In this document: positions 51,037 to 57,215 of the stretch, piece by piece
How positions within the stretch are numbered: position 1 is the stretch's first letter
Layout: every line of letters starts with the position of its first letter
Program-made: the position numbers and the translations under genes
Origin: Singulisphaera sp. GP187
Lineage (GTDB): Bacteria; Planctomycetota; Phycisphaerae; Phycisphaerales; SM1A02
NCBI GenBank assembly: GCA_945869475.1
Contig: CAMBOV010000003.1
Location: 62,001-126,000 of the forward strand
Length of the DNA stretch: 64,000 bases
Reading direction: 5' to 3'
The notes under the pieces: model-generated
What the model saw: only the letters and a program-made list of their open reading frames with translations
Told to the model about the DNA's origin: nothing
Databases searched by the model: none

Positions 51037-51180
51037 TTCTGCAGAGGCAATCTTTTGGCGAGTTGCCTTGCACAATGTCGATTTTGGAGTCAGAATGCCT
51101 ATAGGTTATGACGGTTGGTCTTTCACAGTTCGGGAGTGTCTTGCGAGTTAGTGTGGTCGAGCGATCCGTGGAGGTTTTCG

Positions 51181-51435
51181 ATGTCTGAGAGTGAACAAAC
51201 AATTAGCAGTGTCGACGGACTCGTCAAGTGGTTCGACGCTCGAAAGGGCTTTGGATTCATCGTCGGTCCGCAGGGGCAGGACATTTTCGTCCACTTCAGC
51301 GTGATTGAACAGGACCAAGGCTTTCGAACTTTGCGCGATGGCGAAAAAGTGACCTACAGCGCGCAGTCCGGCGCCAAGGGCTGGGCCGCAACTCATGCCA
51401 GGGCATTTGCTCGAGCCACTGCGCCCGCAACATAA
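51181..51435 (+). CDS. Cold-shock domain protein
   Basis: The 84-residue protein has one cold-shock domain: 'GLVKWFDARKGFGFIVGPQGQDIFVHFSVI', with RNP1 'KGFGFI' and RNP2 'DIFVHF'. It binds single-stranded RNA/DNA as a chaperone. It has a 13-residue N-terminal extension and an Ala/Arg tail slightly longer than CspA. GGAGG (51171-51175) lies five bases before ATG 51181. The ~140-base leader after the pnp terminator could hold temperature-responsive structure; I see no clear promoter. Confidence 0.93.
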   Translation: MSESEQTISSVDGLVKWFDARKGFGFIVGPQGQDIFVHFSVIEQDQGFRTLRDGEKVTYSAQSGAKGWAATHARAFARATAPAT

Positions 51436-51470: not shown

Positions 51471-52373
51471 GTGATTGAATCCCCCGTGACTGCGTCCCCC
51501 GTGATTTCGTTCGACGTGTTTGATTCCCCAACTTTCTTCTTTGGTTTTTTCGCAGGGGTCGCTCTCGGGGCGATCGTTCTGCTCGTCGTGTTCCGCCGCC
51601 GCAATCGACGGGTTCAAGCAGCCGAGCGCCGAGCAGCGAGCGCTGAACGACTCGCCGAACTTGGAGCGATGACGAGCGGTCTCGCGCATGAGATTAAGAA
51701 TCCACTCTCGAGTGTCGTGCTGAACGCACAACTCTTGCGTGAGGGAATTCTCGACGCCCCCCTTCCAGAAGAGGAGTCGGTGAGACTGACTCGGCGCGTT
51801 GACTCGTTGGCGCGCGAGACGAGTCGGCTCAAAGACATCCTCGAAGATTTTCTGAGATATGCCGGACGGTTTCATCTCGATCGCGAACAACGAGATCTGC
51901 GCGAATTGGTCGAAGAGTTGAGCGACTTCGTTCATCCGCAATCAGAGCTGTCGGGAGTGCTTCTTCGCACCGACCTTCCTCCGTTGCCTGTGTACGCAGA
52001 CGTGGATACGGGTCTGCTCAAGCAGTCCATCCTGAATCTGATGCTCAACTCAATTCAGGCAATGGAGACGACGGCGCCGCCAGCTCGCCGCGAACTCATC
52101 GTGCGCGTCGAAGCGATCGCGCAGTCAAAGTCGTCGACTCCGCAGGTTGCCATTCACGTCATCGACACGGGGCCGGGCATCCCAGCCGAGGCACTTGAAG
52201 CGATCTTTCACCCATACATCTCGGGGCGAAAGAGCGGAAGTGGACTCGGACTCGCCGTTGCCCGCCGAATCGTCGAAGAGCATGGCGGCACGATTCGCGT
52301 CTTCAGTGAGATGGGCAAAGGGAGCGATTTCTTGATCGTGCTTCCGCAAGTCACAGCCACTGCGAGCACGTGA
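51471..52373 (+). CDS. Membrane-anchored sensor histidine kinase
   Basis: The 300-residue kinase has one N-terminal helix (~22-41, 'FFFGFFAGVALGAIVLLVV'), a short coiled linker and no extracytoplasmic sensor domain. A HisKA domain carries H73 in 'GLAHEIKNPLSS'. The HATPase_c domain has N-box 'ILNLMLNSIQAM', G1 'DTGPGIP' and G2 'GSGLGLAVARRIVEEHGG'. It begins at GTG 51471. No response regulator is adjacent, so it is an orphan kinase. A 10-bp direct repeat (TCCCCCGTGA) in its first codons gives SPV twice. Confidence 0.88.
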   Translation: MIESPVTASPVISFDVFDSPTFFFGFFAGVALGAIVLLVVFRRRNRRVQAAERRAASAERLAELGAMTSGLAHEIKNPLSSVVLNAQLLREGILDAPLPEEESVRLTRRVDSLARETSRLKDILEDFLRYAGRFHLDREQRDLRELVEELSDFVHPQSELSGVLLRTDLPPLPVYADVDTGLLKQSILNLMLNSIQAMETTAPPARRELIVRVEAIAQSKSSTPQVAIHVIDTGPGIPAEALEAIFHPYISGRKSGSGLGLAVARRIVEEHGGTIRVFSEMGKGSDFLIVLPQVTATAST

Positions 52374-52391: not shown

Positions 52392-53564
52392 TCAGTCGAT
52401 CCAGTCTTTCGCCTTCATTCGTTCGGGAACGTAGACCTCGGTCACGTACGAAATATCTTTAGTGATGAGCGATTCAACTTCCATCTTGAATCCGTTCTTC
52501 ACCATCAACCCAATCTCTTTCTGCCAGTGCTTCTTCTTGATGAACCACGGATACTCGGCGATCTGCTTCGCACGTTCGATGTCGCGATCGTTGAGCGAAA
52601 TCTTGACATCGTCTGAGAGTCCGCAGCGCACAAAGTCGCCCGAACGGATGCCGAGATACTTCGCGTCTGGAATCGCCATCCGCTCGCTCTCAAAGGCGAG
52701 GTTGATCGACCCCTGCTTGATCACCGAGTAGATGTAATGCCCCCATGGATCACAATCGAGCAGGCAATAGATGGGAAGCCCAAGTTCTTTGTTCAGTCTG
52801 TAGAGCAACCGACGAACCCCACGCGGAGGTTGACCGCTTCCCTCGGTGAGAATGCAGTTGTGCTTCTCCCAGAAGCGATCTTCGTTGAATCGACTCCACA
52901 CGGTGTCCTTCTCGACGTGCAAGACGAATTTCGCTTCGCACTTTCCAAACTGCACGACACCGGGTTCACAGATCGATGGGATCGCATACCCGCCGGTGCC
53001 CATGCGACGGCAATCGATTGGATCGCCGTTGTCGACGACCGTGATATTGCCCACCATCGTCCCGCGCTTCTTGGCGAAGAGATGCAAGTTTTCGCGCAAG
53101 GTCGCGAGCGCAACTTCGATGTCTTCGAGGATGCCATCCGATTCTTCCTGGTCGTCGAAGGTCTTCTCTTTCGTTCCCGCGATGGTGTGCAGGCTCTTGT
53201 AGTACATCCCTCGCAAACTGAGCGTTTTCTTCGCTTCAAGCAGGTCTTTGCAACCCTTTGAGAGCAAGACAGTCTGCATGAACTTTCGCGCTTGCCCGGT
53301 GTTGAAGAGGTTTCGGCGCAGCGTCGCATCGCCCATCTGCAAGAGCCGCCGAGTCTCGTTGTAGGTGGTGTTGGACATCGTGCGCGTGGGAACGTCGACA
53401 AAGGGATCGACCTCAGCAAGCGCCGACTTTGCAACTGACTTTCCTAAATCGCTGATCTTCGCGAGTGTCTTGTCGCGCGTGCCTTGGCTTCCGATCATCC
53501 GACTTTCGCGCGCTCGAGCTGCATCGCTTGCAGAGGTTTGTTCTGGGGTTGGTTTTTTGGCCAT
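52392..53564 (-). CDS. top6A: DNA topoisomerase VI subunit A (Spo11/Top6A type)
   Basis: Top6A is the DNA-cleaving subunit of type IIB topoisomerase. In 390 residues it shows the winged-helix active site 'SLRGMYYKSL' (catalytic Tyr Y121 or Y122), followed by 'VVDNGDPIDCRRMGTGGYAIPSI', and the Toprim domain with 'VEKDTVW' (E218) and 'CLLDCDPWGHYIYS' (D270, D272). The C-terminal 'AIPDAKYLGIRSGDF' and 'WQKEIGLMVKNGFKMEVESL' also match. It lies 12 bases downstream of the B subunit. The enzyme relaxes and decatenates DNA by double-strand passage. It is common in archaea and plants and rare in bacteria. Confidence 0.93.
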   Translation of the reverse strand: MAKKPTPEQTSASDAARARESRMIGSQGTRDKTLAKISDLGKSVAKSALAEVDPFVDVPTRTMSNTTYNETRRLLQMGDATLRRNLFNTGQARKFMQTVLLSKGCKDLLEAKKTLSLRGMYYKSLHTIAGTKEKTFDDQEESDGILEDIEVALATLRENLHLFAKKRGTMVGNITVVDNGDPIDCRRMGTGGYAIPSICEPGVVQFGKCEAKFVLHVEKDTVWSRFNEDRFWEKHNCILTEGSGQPPRGVRRLLYRLNKELGLPIYCLLDCDPWGHYIYSVIKQGSINLAFESERMAIPDAKYLGIRSGDFVRCGLSDDVKISLNDRDIERAKQIAEYPWFIKKKHWQKEIGLMVKNGFKMEVESLITKDISYVTEVYVPERMKAKDWID

Positions 53565-53576
53565 CTCGTGTGATCC

Positions 53577-55397
53577 TTATTTCTTCTTGCGACTCTTGGG
53601 CGACTTCGCGGGTGACGCATCCTCTCCAAAGAGCGTTCCACTCGTCGGAGAATCGTCGGCGTGAACAGCCGTATCAGCCTGCACCTCATTTGAAGCGGTT
53701 GGCGCGCGTGCCGAAAGAATGACAACCGAGTCATCTTTTCGAAAAGGATCGGAGTCCTTCACCCGCTTACCCTCGTCGTTGAGCACCGCATCGGCCTCTT
53801 GTGTCTTTCGCTGCGCAACACGCAGAAGCGAGTCGTAGATCTGCTTGGCGGGGGTACCTGTGATCGACTCGGTCGCCTGCGCGATCTCACCGATGTAGCG
53901 CTCGAAGATGCTGCGGCGCTCACCCTCGTTTCGCATGCGCTGCCGACGCCTGACATACATGCCGAGTTTTCGCCCAACCTCCTGAAGGGCGAGCTTCATC
54001 TCTTTGCGAATCTCGTCGTAGTCCGCGATCGCCTCTTTCGATTCGCTCGTGAACGGCACCCACACACTTGCCATGTGCACCATCACGACGATCGGACCAT
54101 CTGGAAGCGATCCGCGCGATTGTGAGACTCCGTAGTTCTTCCAGCTCGTCTCAAGCACGGCCTTGAACGAGGCGCACGCGGCTTGCTGGTAGAGCAGTGG
54201 CACGCGATTGGCGAATCGAATCACCCGGATGAGTTCGTCTTTGGGCAGCTCTCCACCGAACGCAAGCCCCACTTCGATGAGAAATGGATTGCCTCGGTAG
54301 ACATCCGCGGGACGGGTGCACGCCGTGAAAAACTCAGCCTTCACTTCTTTGAGCAATCCAGAAAGCAGAGCCTTGGTGCCGATGGGAACGAGGCAATCCG
54401 TTTGAGGCGCCATGATGCGAACCTCTTGAATGGCCTTGTAAATCCCCTCTGCTTCCTTGTGCCCGATGGCTTTGACCCAGGTGCGATTCGTGATTCCTGC
54501 GCGTTCGCAGATCTCCTTCGCGACCGAGGGCGAGACGCGTGAAAACTCCTCTTGAAGAAACGATCCGATTTGTGATCGCTCCGTTCGCTCGATCATCTGG
54601 ATCAGCGTGCCGAGCTCGATCCCACGGGGATGCGGGAGGATCTCCTTTGCCTCGGGAGGAAGCTCATTCGTCCCCCGATTGAATTGGATCGTCTCGTTCG
54701 TTGGCGTGACGAACGTGAAGCGTGCGTGTGGGTTGGCGATCGCCGTTTGATCGAGATACTCGTCGACCGACTGTCGACCCGTTTGATAGCGGCCTTCAAG
54801 CTCGATCGAGACTTGCGTTCCGTGTCCATCGAGAAAGAGTCCATCATCTTCTGGATGCTCTGTCTCGCTCACCACGTCGGCGCGATTCTTCGAGGTGTCC
54901 ATCTTGAGCAGCACTTCAACGGCGGGCTTCTTCTTGTGCGTCTTCGAGATGATGAGCACCGGCTGACCCGTGGTCATGAGTCCATACATGCCTGCTGCCG
55001 AAATGCCGATCCCCTGCTGGCCTCGACTCATCTTCAATCGATGAAACTTCGAACCGTAGAGGAGCCGTCCAAAAATGTTTTCGATTTGCTTGCGAACGAT
55101 TCCTGGACCGTTGTCGCGCACCGTGACTTTGAAGCGCGTCTCACTTCGCTGGAGCAATTCAACGTAAATATCTGGAAGGATGCACGCCTCTTCACACGCA
55201 TCGAGTGCGTTGTCGACCGCTTCTTTGACCGCCGTCAGGAGTGCCTTTCGCGGATTGTCAAAGCCGAGAAGATGGCGGTTTTTCGCAAAGAATTCGCTGA
55301 CCGAGATCTCGCGCTGCTGCGAAGACATCTCCTCGGCGGTTGCTCCCTTGCGCCGAGGCGTTGACTTTGGTGGTTCGGTGTCGTGTGGGGCGTCCAT
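53577..55397 (-). CDS. top6B: DNA topoisomerase VI subunit B (ATPase)
   Basis: Top6B is the GHKL ATPase subunit. The 606-residue protein has the N-box 'KEAVDNALDACEEA' (N63), 'VRDNGPGI' (D95), 'SRGQQGIGISAAGMYG' (126-139), an H2TH-like region ('SVAKEICERAGITN'), a transducer domain with 'GNPFLIEVGLAFGG' and 'HMASVWVPFTSESKEAIADYDEI', and a charged C-terminal tail ending in 'KSPKSRKKK'. The archaeal-type BA order is kept. TAGGCT (55408-55413) lies ten bases before the ATG. The gene is divergent from ndk. Confidence 0.94.
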   Translation of the reverse strand: MDAPHDTEPPKSTPRRKGATAEEMSSQQREISVSEFFAKNRHLLGFDNPRKALLTAVKEAVDNALDACEEACILPDIYVELLQRSETRFKVTVRDNGPGIVRKQIENIFGRLLYGSKFHRLKMSRGQQGIGISAAGMYGLMTTGQPVLIISKTHKKKPAVEVLLKMDTSKNRADVVSETEHPEDDGLFLDGHGTQVSIELEGRYQTGRQSVDEYLDQTAIANPHARFTFVTPTNETIQFNRGTNELPPEAKEILPHPRGIELGTLIQMIERTERSQIGSFLQEEFSRVSPSVAKEICERAGITNRTWVKAIGHKEAEGIYKAIQEVRIMAPQTDCLVPIGTKALLSGLLKEVKAEFFTACTRPADVYRGNPFLIEVGLAFGGELPKDELIRVIRFANRVPLLYQQAACASFKAVLETSWKNYGVSQSRGSLPDGPIVVMVHMASVWVPFTSESKEAIADYDEIRKEMKLALQEVGRKLGMYVRRRQRMRNEGERRSIFERYIGEIAQATESITGTPAKQIYDSLLRVAQRKTQEADAVLNDEGKRVKDSDPFRKDDSVVILSARAPTASNEVQADTAVHADDSPTSGTLFGEDASPAKSPKSRKKK

Positions 55398-55976: not shown

Positions 55977-56147
55977 CGCGCAGGAGCCCCTTTTTTTAAA
56001 CGGATTCTCACGCTTTGCCCTCGCGCGCCTCACGGATGCCGAGTGGGCTGTTGTTGTTTTTTGTGGCACCGAATTTGCTCTGGATTCATAGAACGCCCCT
56101 CGCGGGTCGTGCGTATGTACAGGCACGTCGTTTGTCGGAAGGAACCT

Positions 56148-57215
56148 ATGACCAAATCAGAATTGAAAACCCAATCGAAATCGAGTGTGGTGCATGAACT
56201 GCGTGAGCTCAAGGTTCGCCGTTCTGCCGACTCAATCAGTTTTGGCACGACCAGAATGCCCGCGGGCAGCTTCACTCCTTTAGAGAGGAGCATCCTTGAT
56301 TCACTGCACACAGAAGTTGTTGATTTCATCGACAACCCCGAGTTTTACAGGGCAGGTGCGCGCCGTCGAATCTTCGATGAGGCGCTTCCAATCGCGAAGC
56401 CTGATACAAAGTGGTACGCCCCCTTGCTCGACGAGCGTCGTGTGCGAACATCGACGGCGACGATGGCGCGTCCAGCCAAATCGATGGTGCTGACGGCCGC
56501 GCAAGAGCGGGTCTTGTTCGCGCAATTGAATTACGCACGGTCACGCGTGGCACGGTTGCAAACGCAGTCGCATCAATCGGGCTGGACGACTGCTCGAGCG
56601 AGAGAGATTCTGCGTTGGCATCGGGTGAGCGACGAGGTGCGAAAGCAGTTGGCTGAAACGAACCTCGCGCTTGTGCTGGCGATGGCGAAGCGCGTTCGTT
56701 CGGCCGATCTCGACTTCGGCGATCTCATGAGCGAGGGAAACATGGCGCTCATGCGCTCAGTCGATAAGTTTGATTTCAGTCGCGGCTTCAAGTTCTCAAC
56801 ATACGCGTGTCGCGCGATTCTCAAGGCGTACAGCCGTCTGGGACTGAAGGCGCAGAAGTATCGCAAGCACTTTCCAGTCGAATTCGACCCCGCGCTCGAG
56901 CGCGGCGACCACGTCGGCGCAGTGCGTGCCGCGCGCCAGACCGAGGATGTGGCAGAGGTCAAGACGCTCTTCGATTCGAATCGCGCGGGTCTTTCCGAAC
57001 TCGAACGCACCGTGATCTTTCACCGCTACGGCCTCGACCGACCGGTGCATGCCGCGCCAATGACGCTTGAAAAGGTTGGCGTGATGGTTGGCGTCACGAA
57101 AGAACGCGTACGCCAGATTCAGAACAAGGCGCTCGAAAAGATTCGACGAGCACTTGTCTGCCTAAATCCTGCGGCGGCCGAGAGGCTTCCGACGATCAAC
57201 GGATCACGGAACTAA
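56148..57215 (+). CDS. Sigma-70 family RNA polymerase sigma factor
   Basis: The 355-residue sigma factor has a core of region 2 ('RKQLAETNLALVLAMAKRVRSADLDFGDLMSEGNMALMRSVDKFDFSRGFKFSTYA') and region 4 ('LSELERTVIFHRYGL', 'LEKVGVMVGVTKERVRQIQNKALEKIRRAL'). The N-terminal ~150 residues are atypical, not the acidic region 1.1 of RpoD, and region 3 is short. This fits an alternative sigma of the RpoD/RpoS-related groups found in Planctomycetota. AAGGA sits four bases before ATG 56148. The 3' end overlaps the convergent MFS gene by 20 bases. Confidence 0.85.
   Translation: MTKSELKTQSKSSVVHELRELKVRRSADSISFGTTRMPAGSFTPLERSILDSLHTEVVDFIDNPEFYRAGARRRIFDEALPIAKPDTKWYAPLLDERRVRTSTATMARPAKSMVLTAAQERVLFAQLNYARSRVARLQTQSHQSGWTTARAREILRWHRVSDEVRKQLAETNLALVLAMAKRVRSADLDFGDLMSEGNMALMRSVDKFDFSRGFKFSTYACRAILKAYSRLGLKAQKYRKHFPVEFDPALERGDHVGAVRAARQTEDVAEVKTLFDSNRAGLSELERTVIFHRYGLDRPVHAAPMTLEKVGVMVGVTKERVRQIQNKALEKIRRALVCLNPAAAERLPTINGSRN

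Follow-up and report, generated by a model that had tools for sequence, protein, structure and literature searches.

The stretch of DNA analyzed here (the window) comprises 64,000 nucleotides of a contig of the planctomycete Singulisphaera sp. GP187 (class Phycisphaerae) and encodes both subunits, Top6A and Top6B, of DNA topoisomerase VI (topo VI). This enzyme, which is related to the meiotic Spo11 machine, is an obligate heterotetramer. This analysis concerns the ancestry of the two subunits and the role of the enzyme in the cell. The features of the locus are the following.

52392..53564, minus strand: top6A, DNA topoisomerase VI subunit A, 390 amino acids, 'type 1' (NF003333); from Pfam, NCBIfam, PDB and alignment
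53577..55397, minus strand: top6B, DNA topoisomerase VI subunit B, 606 amino acids, with GHKL ATPase, transducer with K454, stalk and C-terminal docking end; from Pfam, NCBIfam, PDB and alignment
53580..53945, minus strand: 3' end of top6B (residues 485-606), stalk end and docking region, which differs between type-1 and type-2 genomes
53565..53576, minus strand: intergenic gap of 12 nucleotides between top6B and top6A, giving TAAGGATCACACGAG together with the top6B stop codon
55506..55976, plus strand: ndk, nucleoside diphosphate kinase, divergent neighbour; from Pfam and NCBIfam
51471..52373, plus strand: sensor histidine kinase, convergent neighbour; from Pfam and NCBIfam

The original prediction had described two intact subunits with a tyrosine pair, Toprim acidic residues and GHKL motifs, encoded in B-then-A order with native-looking codon use, and each of these features is confirmed by domain models, residue alignment and base composition. 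Top6A matches the Pfam families PF21180, PF04406 and PF20768 (E values of 2.6e-58, 4.2e-15 and 1.9e-6) and NCBIfam NF003333 with 519.8 bits (cut-off 465), Top6B matches PF09239 (6.3e-59), two GHKL-ATPase families and NF003218 with 685 bits (cut-off 274), and a sequence search of the PDB at E ≤0.001 returned solely topo VI chains for either subunit. In alignment with Top6A of Methanosarcina mazei (equivalents in brackets) the window protein has R118 (R102), Y121-Y122 (Y105 and the catalytic Y106), E218 (E202), D270 and D272 in the motif DCDPWG (D254 and D256) and E362 (E342), which makes Y122 the catalytic tyrosine, R118 and E362 the clasp pair and E218, D270 and D272 the metal-binding Toprim residues; the active-site tyrosines thus align well with those of genuine Top6A. 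In Top6B the GHKL motifs KEAVDNALDACEE, DNGPGI and GQQGIGISAAG start at residues 58, 95 and 126, and K454 aligns to K427 of Sulfolobus shibatae, which we take to be the switch lysine. Between GHKL domain and transducer, where topo VI, unlike topo VIB-like proteins, would have an H2TH domain, the alignment with chain 2Q2E_B is unbroken (residues 20-508) and a weak structure model has helices at 262-325. Other marks of a type IIB topo VI are present in both subunits, the catalytic and Toprim residues in Top6A and the GHKL motifs, transducer and K454 in Top6B, each subunit being encoded once in the genome. A Shine-Dalgarno-like AAGGA precedes the top6A ATG and overlaps the top6B stop codon, and GC content at third codon positions is 0.67 and 0.70 in the pair compared to 0.62-0.67 in seven neighbour genes.

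Spo11 and JetD/MksG, which resemble Top6A, have no complete Top6B partner, whereas the window Top6A has a complete Top6B adjoining. Structural comparison of the Top6A model (residues 165-389 only) gave Z scores of 25-32 to Top6A chains, 17-18 to Spo11 and 13-14 to JetD and a Corynebacterium glutamicum nuclease. As a guide to archaeal affinity the same comparison, limited to these residues, was undiscriminating (M. mazei 31.9, Methanococcus jannaschii 30.3, S. shibatae 28.9).

Ancestry of the two subunits

Top6A proteins of the phylum belong to two lineages that are about 34% identical to each other. Typing by BLAST against the window protein (type 1, at least 40% identity; type 2, below 36%) assigned 147 loci to type 1 and 64 to type 2, a total of 211 in which a genome can be represented by several loci and which includes the window's own locus L001, two short loci (L072 and L085) being set aside. 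The best of four archaeal Top6A references is S. shibatae for 147/147 type-1 loci and M. jannaschii for 64/64 type-2 loci. Among the NCBIfam models NF003333 is assigned to the window Top6A and NF003337 to three tested type-2 proteins, the latter also being best for M. jannaschii; S. shibatae falls under NF003336 and M. mazei under NF003332. For Top6B, M. mazei has the best median among three archaeal references in both types, with 48-49% identity in each, and NF003218 is the best NCBIfam model for the window, for four type-2 genomes and for one further type-1 genome (L320). When 48 genomes with both subunits were compared, median identities of A and B were 54.7% and 55.7% within type 1 and 63.1% and 55.3% within type 2, as against 33.6% and 51.7% across types (551 pairs; difference -28.2 to -7.7). 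Moreover, in a Top6A tree of 48 planctomycete rows from 40 families (16 type 1, 24 type 2), a group unites type 2 and M. jannaschii (95) and another type 1 and S. shibatae (99, S. shibatae being flagged for a long branch), and an approximately unbiased (AU) test rejects a single clade of all planctomycete Top6A (p 0.006).

The window Top6A and Top6B have different ancestry, as seen in their discordant affinities. The Top6B body belongs to a single family across the sampled Planctomycetota, and the window Top6A represents a second lineage, whereas 24 of the 40 planctomycete families in the tree have the other, Methanococcus-like Top6A. With affinities of A and B that disagree, the window topo VI seems unlikely to have come as a single unit from a single source. 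The original prediction of an old functional acquisition holds in so far as the genes are complete, native-looking, chromosomal and common to most close relatives; a single-source origin is hard to square with the discordance of A and B. Several points weigh against so clear a separation. The archaeal references number three or four, the long-branch warning attaches to one side of the Top6A tree, and AU tests of full-length Top6B do not reject a single clade of type-2 B (p 0.48) or a union of type-1 B with S. shibatae (p 0.69), the latter test being uninformative with a branch 7 changes long. In the full-length Top6B tree type-1 B forms one clade (99).

The checked catalytic residues and the domain order are shared with the archaeal enzymes of M. 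mazei (2Q2E/9O8P), S. shibatae (2ZBK) and M. jannaschii (1D3Y), and the B-A operon is shared with a Natronorubrum plasmid. Median identity to the archaeal references is 32-41% for type-1 Top6A and 34-49% for Top6B. The window enzyme differs from archaeal topo VI in its bacterial host with gyrase, in that A is closer to one archaeal reference and B to another, and in a longer and variable C-terminal tail of Top6B.

The docking end of Top6B

In M. mazei the winged-helix domains of Top6A bind a small C-terminal hairpin of Top6B that follows the stalk, as described in the available text of PMC13040014. By alignment and model, the part of Top6B that diverges between the two types appears to correspond to this docking hairpin region. 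Across-type identity of Top6B lies within 10 points of within-type identity in 15/15 windows of residues 20-469 and falls to 36.7% at residues 470-499 and 20.0% at 500-529, where identity across a split within type 2, made as a control, is still 50%; in a third tail window it is 9.1%, a value that has no control as type-2 tails end there. The change is dense from about residue 492 onward, positions 494 and 498 being R and F in 19/19 type-1 rows and K and I in 29/29 type-2 rows, and the boundary of the type-dependent part lies somewhere around residues 460-494. The structure model of Top6B is weak (predicted local distance difference test score 65, predicted template modelling score 0.47) and was used solely for the helix limits 461-513 and 517-536. 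Of the 50 columns that start with residue 485, 22 have a normalized mutual information with the A type above 0.6, as do 4 of the 477 columns before. Other clades of the body tree served as controls: those made up of type-1 rows only had an excess in the tail as well, of up to 17/50 columns, and those without type-1 rows had at most 3/50.

Tail models built on the 48 rows were then applied to other loci. Tail type equalled A type in 117/117 further loci (109 type 1, 8 type 2), and in 121/121 before exclusion of L001, L010, L023 and L283, which come from the same genomes as rows; named loci among the 117 may repeat loci listed under genome handles. In 87 of these loci the tail was less than 80% identical to every model row. 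The match between A and tail is kept where top6A and top6B are not neighbours, for example in G115, G109, G062 and G266. In addition, a tree of the Top6B body only, from which S. shibatae was left out, needs three changes of type, with type 1 in three groups and in one clade in 0% of 200 bootstraps; a starred group with 29 members combines 18 of the 19 type-1 rows with 11 type-2 rows. Against this stands the AU test, in which one type-1 clade for the body is not rejected (p 0.094), and several exchanges are for that reason not claimed as shown.

How could such an enzyme have been put together? Judged by sequence, the window probably encodes a functional type IIB topoisomerase, most likely a decatenase, that is chimeric, with Top6A and the Top6B docking end going together on a resident Top6B body. 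By analogy to the solved archaeal enzymes, it would be a Top6A2-Top6B2 assembly in which Top6B binds ATP and dimerizes, the Top6B stalk acts on the winged-helix domain of Top6A, and the two Top6A subunits each break a strand of one duplex with their Tyr122, after which a second duplex passes through. The chances are about even that Top6A and the docking end constitute an exchangeable cartridge with a breakpoint in top6B, swapped against the resident body probably more than once and with the match kept when the genes are unlinked. We infer recombination inside top6B, rather than fast co-adaptation, as the route: the simplest course would be one in which recombination, or replacement of genes, had its breakpoint within top6B, and the B-then-A operon order would permit tail and top6A to be swapped in one event.

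Alternatively, only top6A may have been replaced and the docking end of Top6B may then have evolved fast to fit, without any breakpoint in top6B. This is less probable, though by no means remote, since the divergence of Top6B is largely confined to the docking end, and the type-1 tail is itself variable (33% identity within type 1 at residues 500-529) and on its own finds nothing in the PDB at E values of 10 or less. The missing match means that a donor tail is not shown, which leaves room for fast co-adaptation. However, change that is dense from residue 492 and the lack of any intermediate tail among the 117 further loci argue for an exchange, and the type-1 tail looks archaeal in length, the window tail alone matching NF003218 (E 2e-11) as far as position 526 of the 539 in the model and the queried type-2 tail no further than 508.

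It is unlikely that two whole operons were received from two archaea with similar Top6B and that no exchange took place in bacteria. The inability of the full-length AU tests to exclude two B clades would agree with such a history, as would published trees in which the bacterial sequences of either subunit form two clusters (PMC11302465). On the other hand, B is nearly as similar across types (51.7%) as within them (55.3-55.7%) while A falls to 33.6%, and the body-only tree mixes nearly all type-1 rows with type-2 rows in one group. The same publication (Allen and Maxwell, 2024, PMC11302465), as far as its text is available, reports topo VI in 17 bacterial families including planctomycetes, with gyrase present and planctomycetes lacking topoisomerase IV (topo IV), suggests at least two transfers from archaea to bacteria, calls a single subunit discordance, in Bdellovibrio bacteriovorus, likely anomalous, and refers to unpublished complementation by M. 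mazei topo VI. Topo VI together with gyrase and without topo IV in bacteria of the Planctomycetes-Verrucomicrobia-Chlamydiae (PVC) group is thus already published; the chimeric composition is a new variant, a joint exchange of A and the Top6B docking end not being described in the available text of that study. A literature search, outside which most subscription papers lie, found among the matches listed no title or abstract on topo VI subunit exchange.

Type II topoisomerases and cellular role

Gyrase is the only type IIA enzyme seen in the genome, with a single GyrA (box QGRGGVG, five propeller blades) and a single GyrB; the one PF00521 protein is that with the GyrA box, and PF00204 is likewise matched by one protein. 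Topo IV (ParC/ParE) was thus not found in this genome. A PF00521 match exists in 239 of 248 class genomes; the nine others, and 8/351 phylum genomes outside the class, were left out of the counts for want of a match. Among topo VI-positive class genomes 150/152 have one match and the remaining two, G077 and G186, have one gene split over two contigs, so a second true GyrA/ParC was not seen in the sampled topo VI genomes of the class. Topo VI-negative class genomes have one match in 64/87 cases and two or more in 23/87, the latter including a split gene in G087 and four partial-looking matches in G255.

For 45 genomes PF00521 was listed match by match and readable A subunits were typed by the GyrA box, truncated G417 and the short A subunits L261-L271, L275 and L276, which lie outside the box alignment, being left out. 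A second A subunit without the box (ParC-type) occurs in 21 genomes, 20 of them without topo VI and the exception being G460; where compared, this subunit has 57-82% identity to the ParC-type protein of L219. Counts of PF00204 are in line with this, at two in each of 14 tested ParC-type, topo VI-negative genomes and one in each of eight that were tested among the genomes with a lone PF00521 gene. The pattern recurs inside families: genomes with one versus at least two PF00521 matches number 15/0 with topo VI and 2/8 without it in family f11, 18/0 and 0/3 in f55, 3/0 and 0/2 in f38, and 7/0 and 0/1 in f90, and in topo VI-minus genomes of f6, f11, f38, f55 and f90 ParC and ParE take the place of topo VI. 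With 22 mixed families as strata, topo VI and a second PF00521 gene are negatively associated (p 4e-7, raw counts).

Such a gene pattern would be expected if topo VI replaced topo IV, without implying that topo VI is essential, and it agrees with the decatenation role of the original prediction. Judged by gene content, the window topo VI is most likely the decatenase of the cell beside gyrase; it would untangle sister chromosomes, the task of topo IV elsewhere. Topo IV is a type IIA enzyme with an unrelated cleavage subunit and shares with the window enzyme only this probable cellular role. For the M. mazei enzyme, PMC8837201 describes a preference for decatenation.

Other counts weigh against a simple replacement. 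A genome without topo IV need not have topo VI, as seen in the 64 class genomes that have one PF00521 gene and no topo VI; this state is the rule in f9 (26/26) and f47 (16/16 genomes with a match), which is why the pattern does not imply essentiality of topo VI. Outside the class 19/150 topo VI-positive genomes have at least two PF00521 matches (99/193 among topo VI-negative ones). Of 14 listed topo VI genomes with extra PF00521, nine (G303, G466, G454, G309, G333, G318, G380, G424 and G476) hold a short divergent second copy, G398 and G563 have two box-bearing copies, G460 (6% contamination) has a ParC-type copy, and G395 and G417 have pieces only.

The possibility that topo VI is an accessory enzyme in repair, transcription or defence and that gyrase performs decatenation draws on the same single-gene relatives (64/87 in the class, 16/16 in f47, 18/23 in f67). 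We consider it improbable given that 20/21 genomes with ParC-type topo IV lack topo VI, that swaps recur inside single families, that the locus has a conserved chromosomal setting and that the M. mazei enzyme is, in the source just cited, a preferential decatenase.

Several observations were made on the side. The short PF00521 proteins (637-732 amino acids) are 30-38% identical to ParC-type subunits, and no propeller was recognized in three that were scanned; they occur at L261, L263-L271, L275 and L276 in G318, G466, G333, G363, G454, G303, G476, G380, G424, G309, G079 and G250, with a weak PF00204 match beside them in G476, G309 and G380. Nine of these 12 genomes also have topo VI and gyrase and may hold three type II enzymes, in contrast to the published restriction of three-enzyme sets to Pseudomonadota and Terrabacteria. 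G129 has six PF00521 matches, possibly by contamination; one of them, L087, has the top score among those listed in the class, and three that adjoin on contig C16 appear to be fragments of a single gene. The Top6A families NF003332, NF003333, NF003334, NF003336 and NF003337 are named 'DNA topoisomerase IV subunit A' in NCBIfam, which can inflate topo IV counts in annotations.

Distribution, setting and significance

Topo VI had been called scarce in bacteria, which does not apply to this lineage. Top6A (PF04406) is present in 53/61 closest genomes, 153/248 class genomes and 189/392 genomes of the phylum (188 above the family cut-off), the own genome counted throughout, and its presence in a planctomycete is ordinary. 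Top6B (PF09239) is found in 154/248 class genomes, 151 having both subunits when the lists were compared by hand. Within the genus Top6A occurs in 17/19 genomes, own included, and the two without it are 70% and 80% complete. Two Phycisphaerae families, assigned from family names, are presumably among the PVC families with topo VI in PMC11302465.

The predicted chromosomal setting between ndk and histidine kinase is borne out and shared, with conserved flanks, by most close relatives. Among 80 named loci, those with enough flank have top6B directly upstream of top6A in 66/73 cases, ndk in the same place in 54/70, the histidine kinase in 56/72, and both flanking the pair in 50/65. The closest of the 80 is that of a Phycisphaerales genome labelled Baikal-deep-G179, with a Top6A 96% identical. 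A cold-shock protein gene (51175-51435) and a sigma-70 family factor (56139-57215) lie near the pair and recur there in many named loci.

A mobile origin is unsupported by viral, phage and plasmid searches. Single proteins found no topo VI match among viral contigs and none in the phage search, and alignments found one viral contig, the same for each subunit (IMGVR_UViG_3300037657_000197). Plasmid matches were limited to three haloarchaeal replicons for Top6A, and to these and two partial matches below 35% (Halapricum and a Synechococcus plasmid) for Top6B. The contig, classed as viral, carries Top6A and Top6B (L351/L352) 57-60% identical to those of the window and is likely host sequence. An assembly or binning artefact, conceivable in a draft of 32 contigs, can practically be dismissed, as both subunits recur in independent genomes including single-contig G027, the neighbours recur in named loci, Top6A is not absent from close relatives (17/19 of the genus) and the genome is 96.71% complete with 1.02% contamination.

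If true, a natural exchange of the cleavage subunit together with its docking element would show where the halves of topo VI can be cut and rejoined, and the natural chimeras could be used to test how ATPase status passes to DNA cleavage. Furthermore, the reciprocal pattern of topo VI and topo IV within planctomycete families would represent repeated natural replacements and thereby a test of topo VI as bacterial chromosome decatenase.

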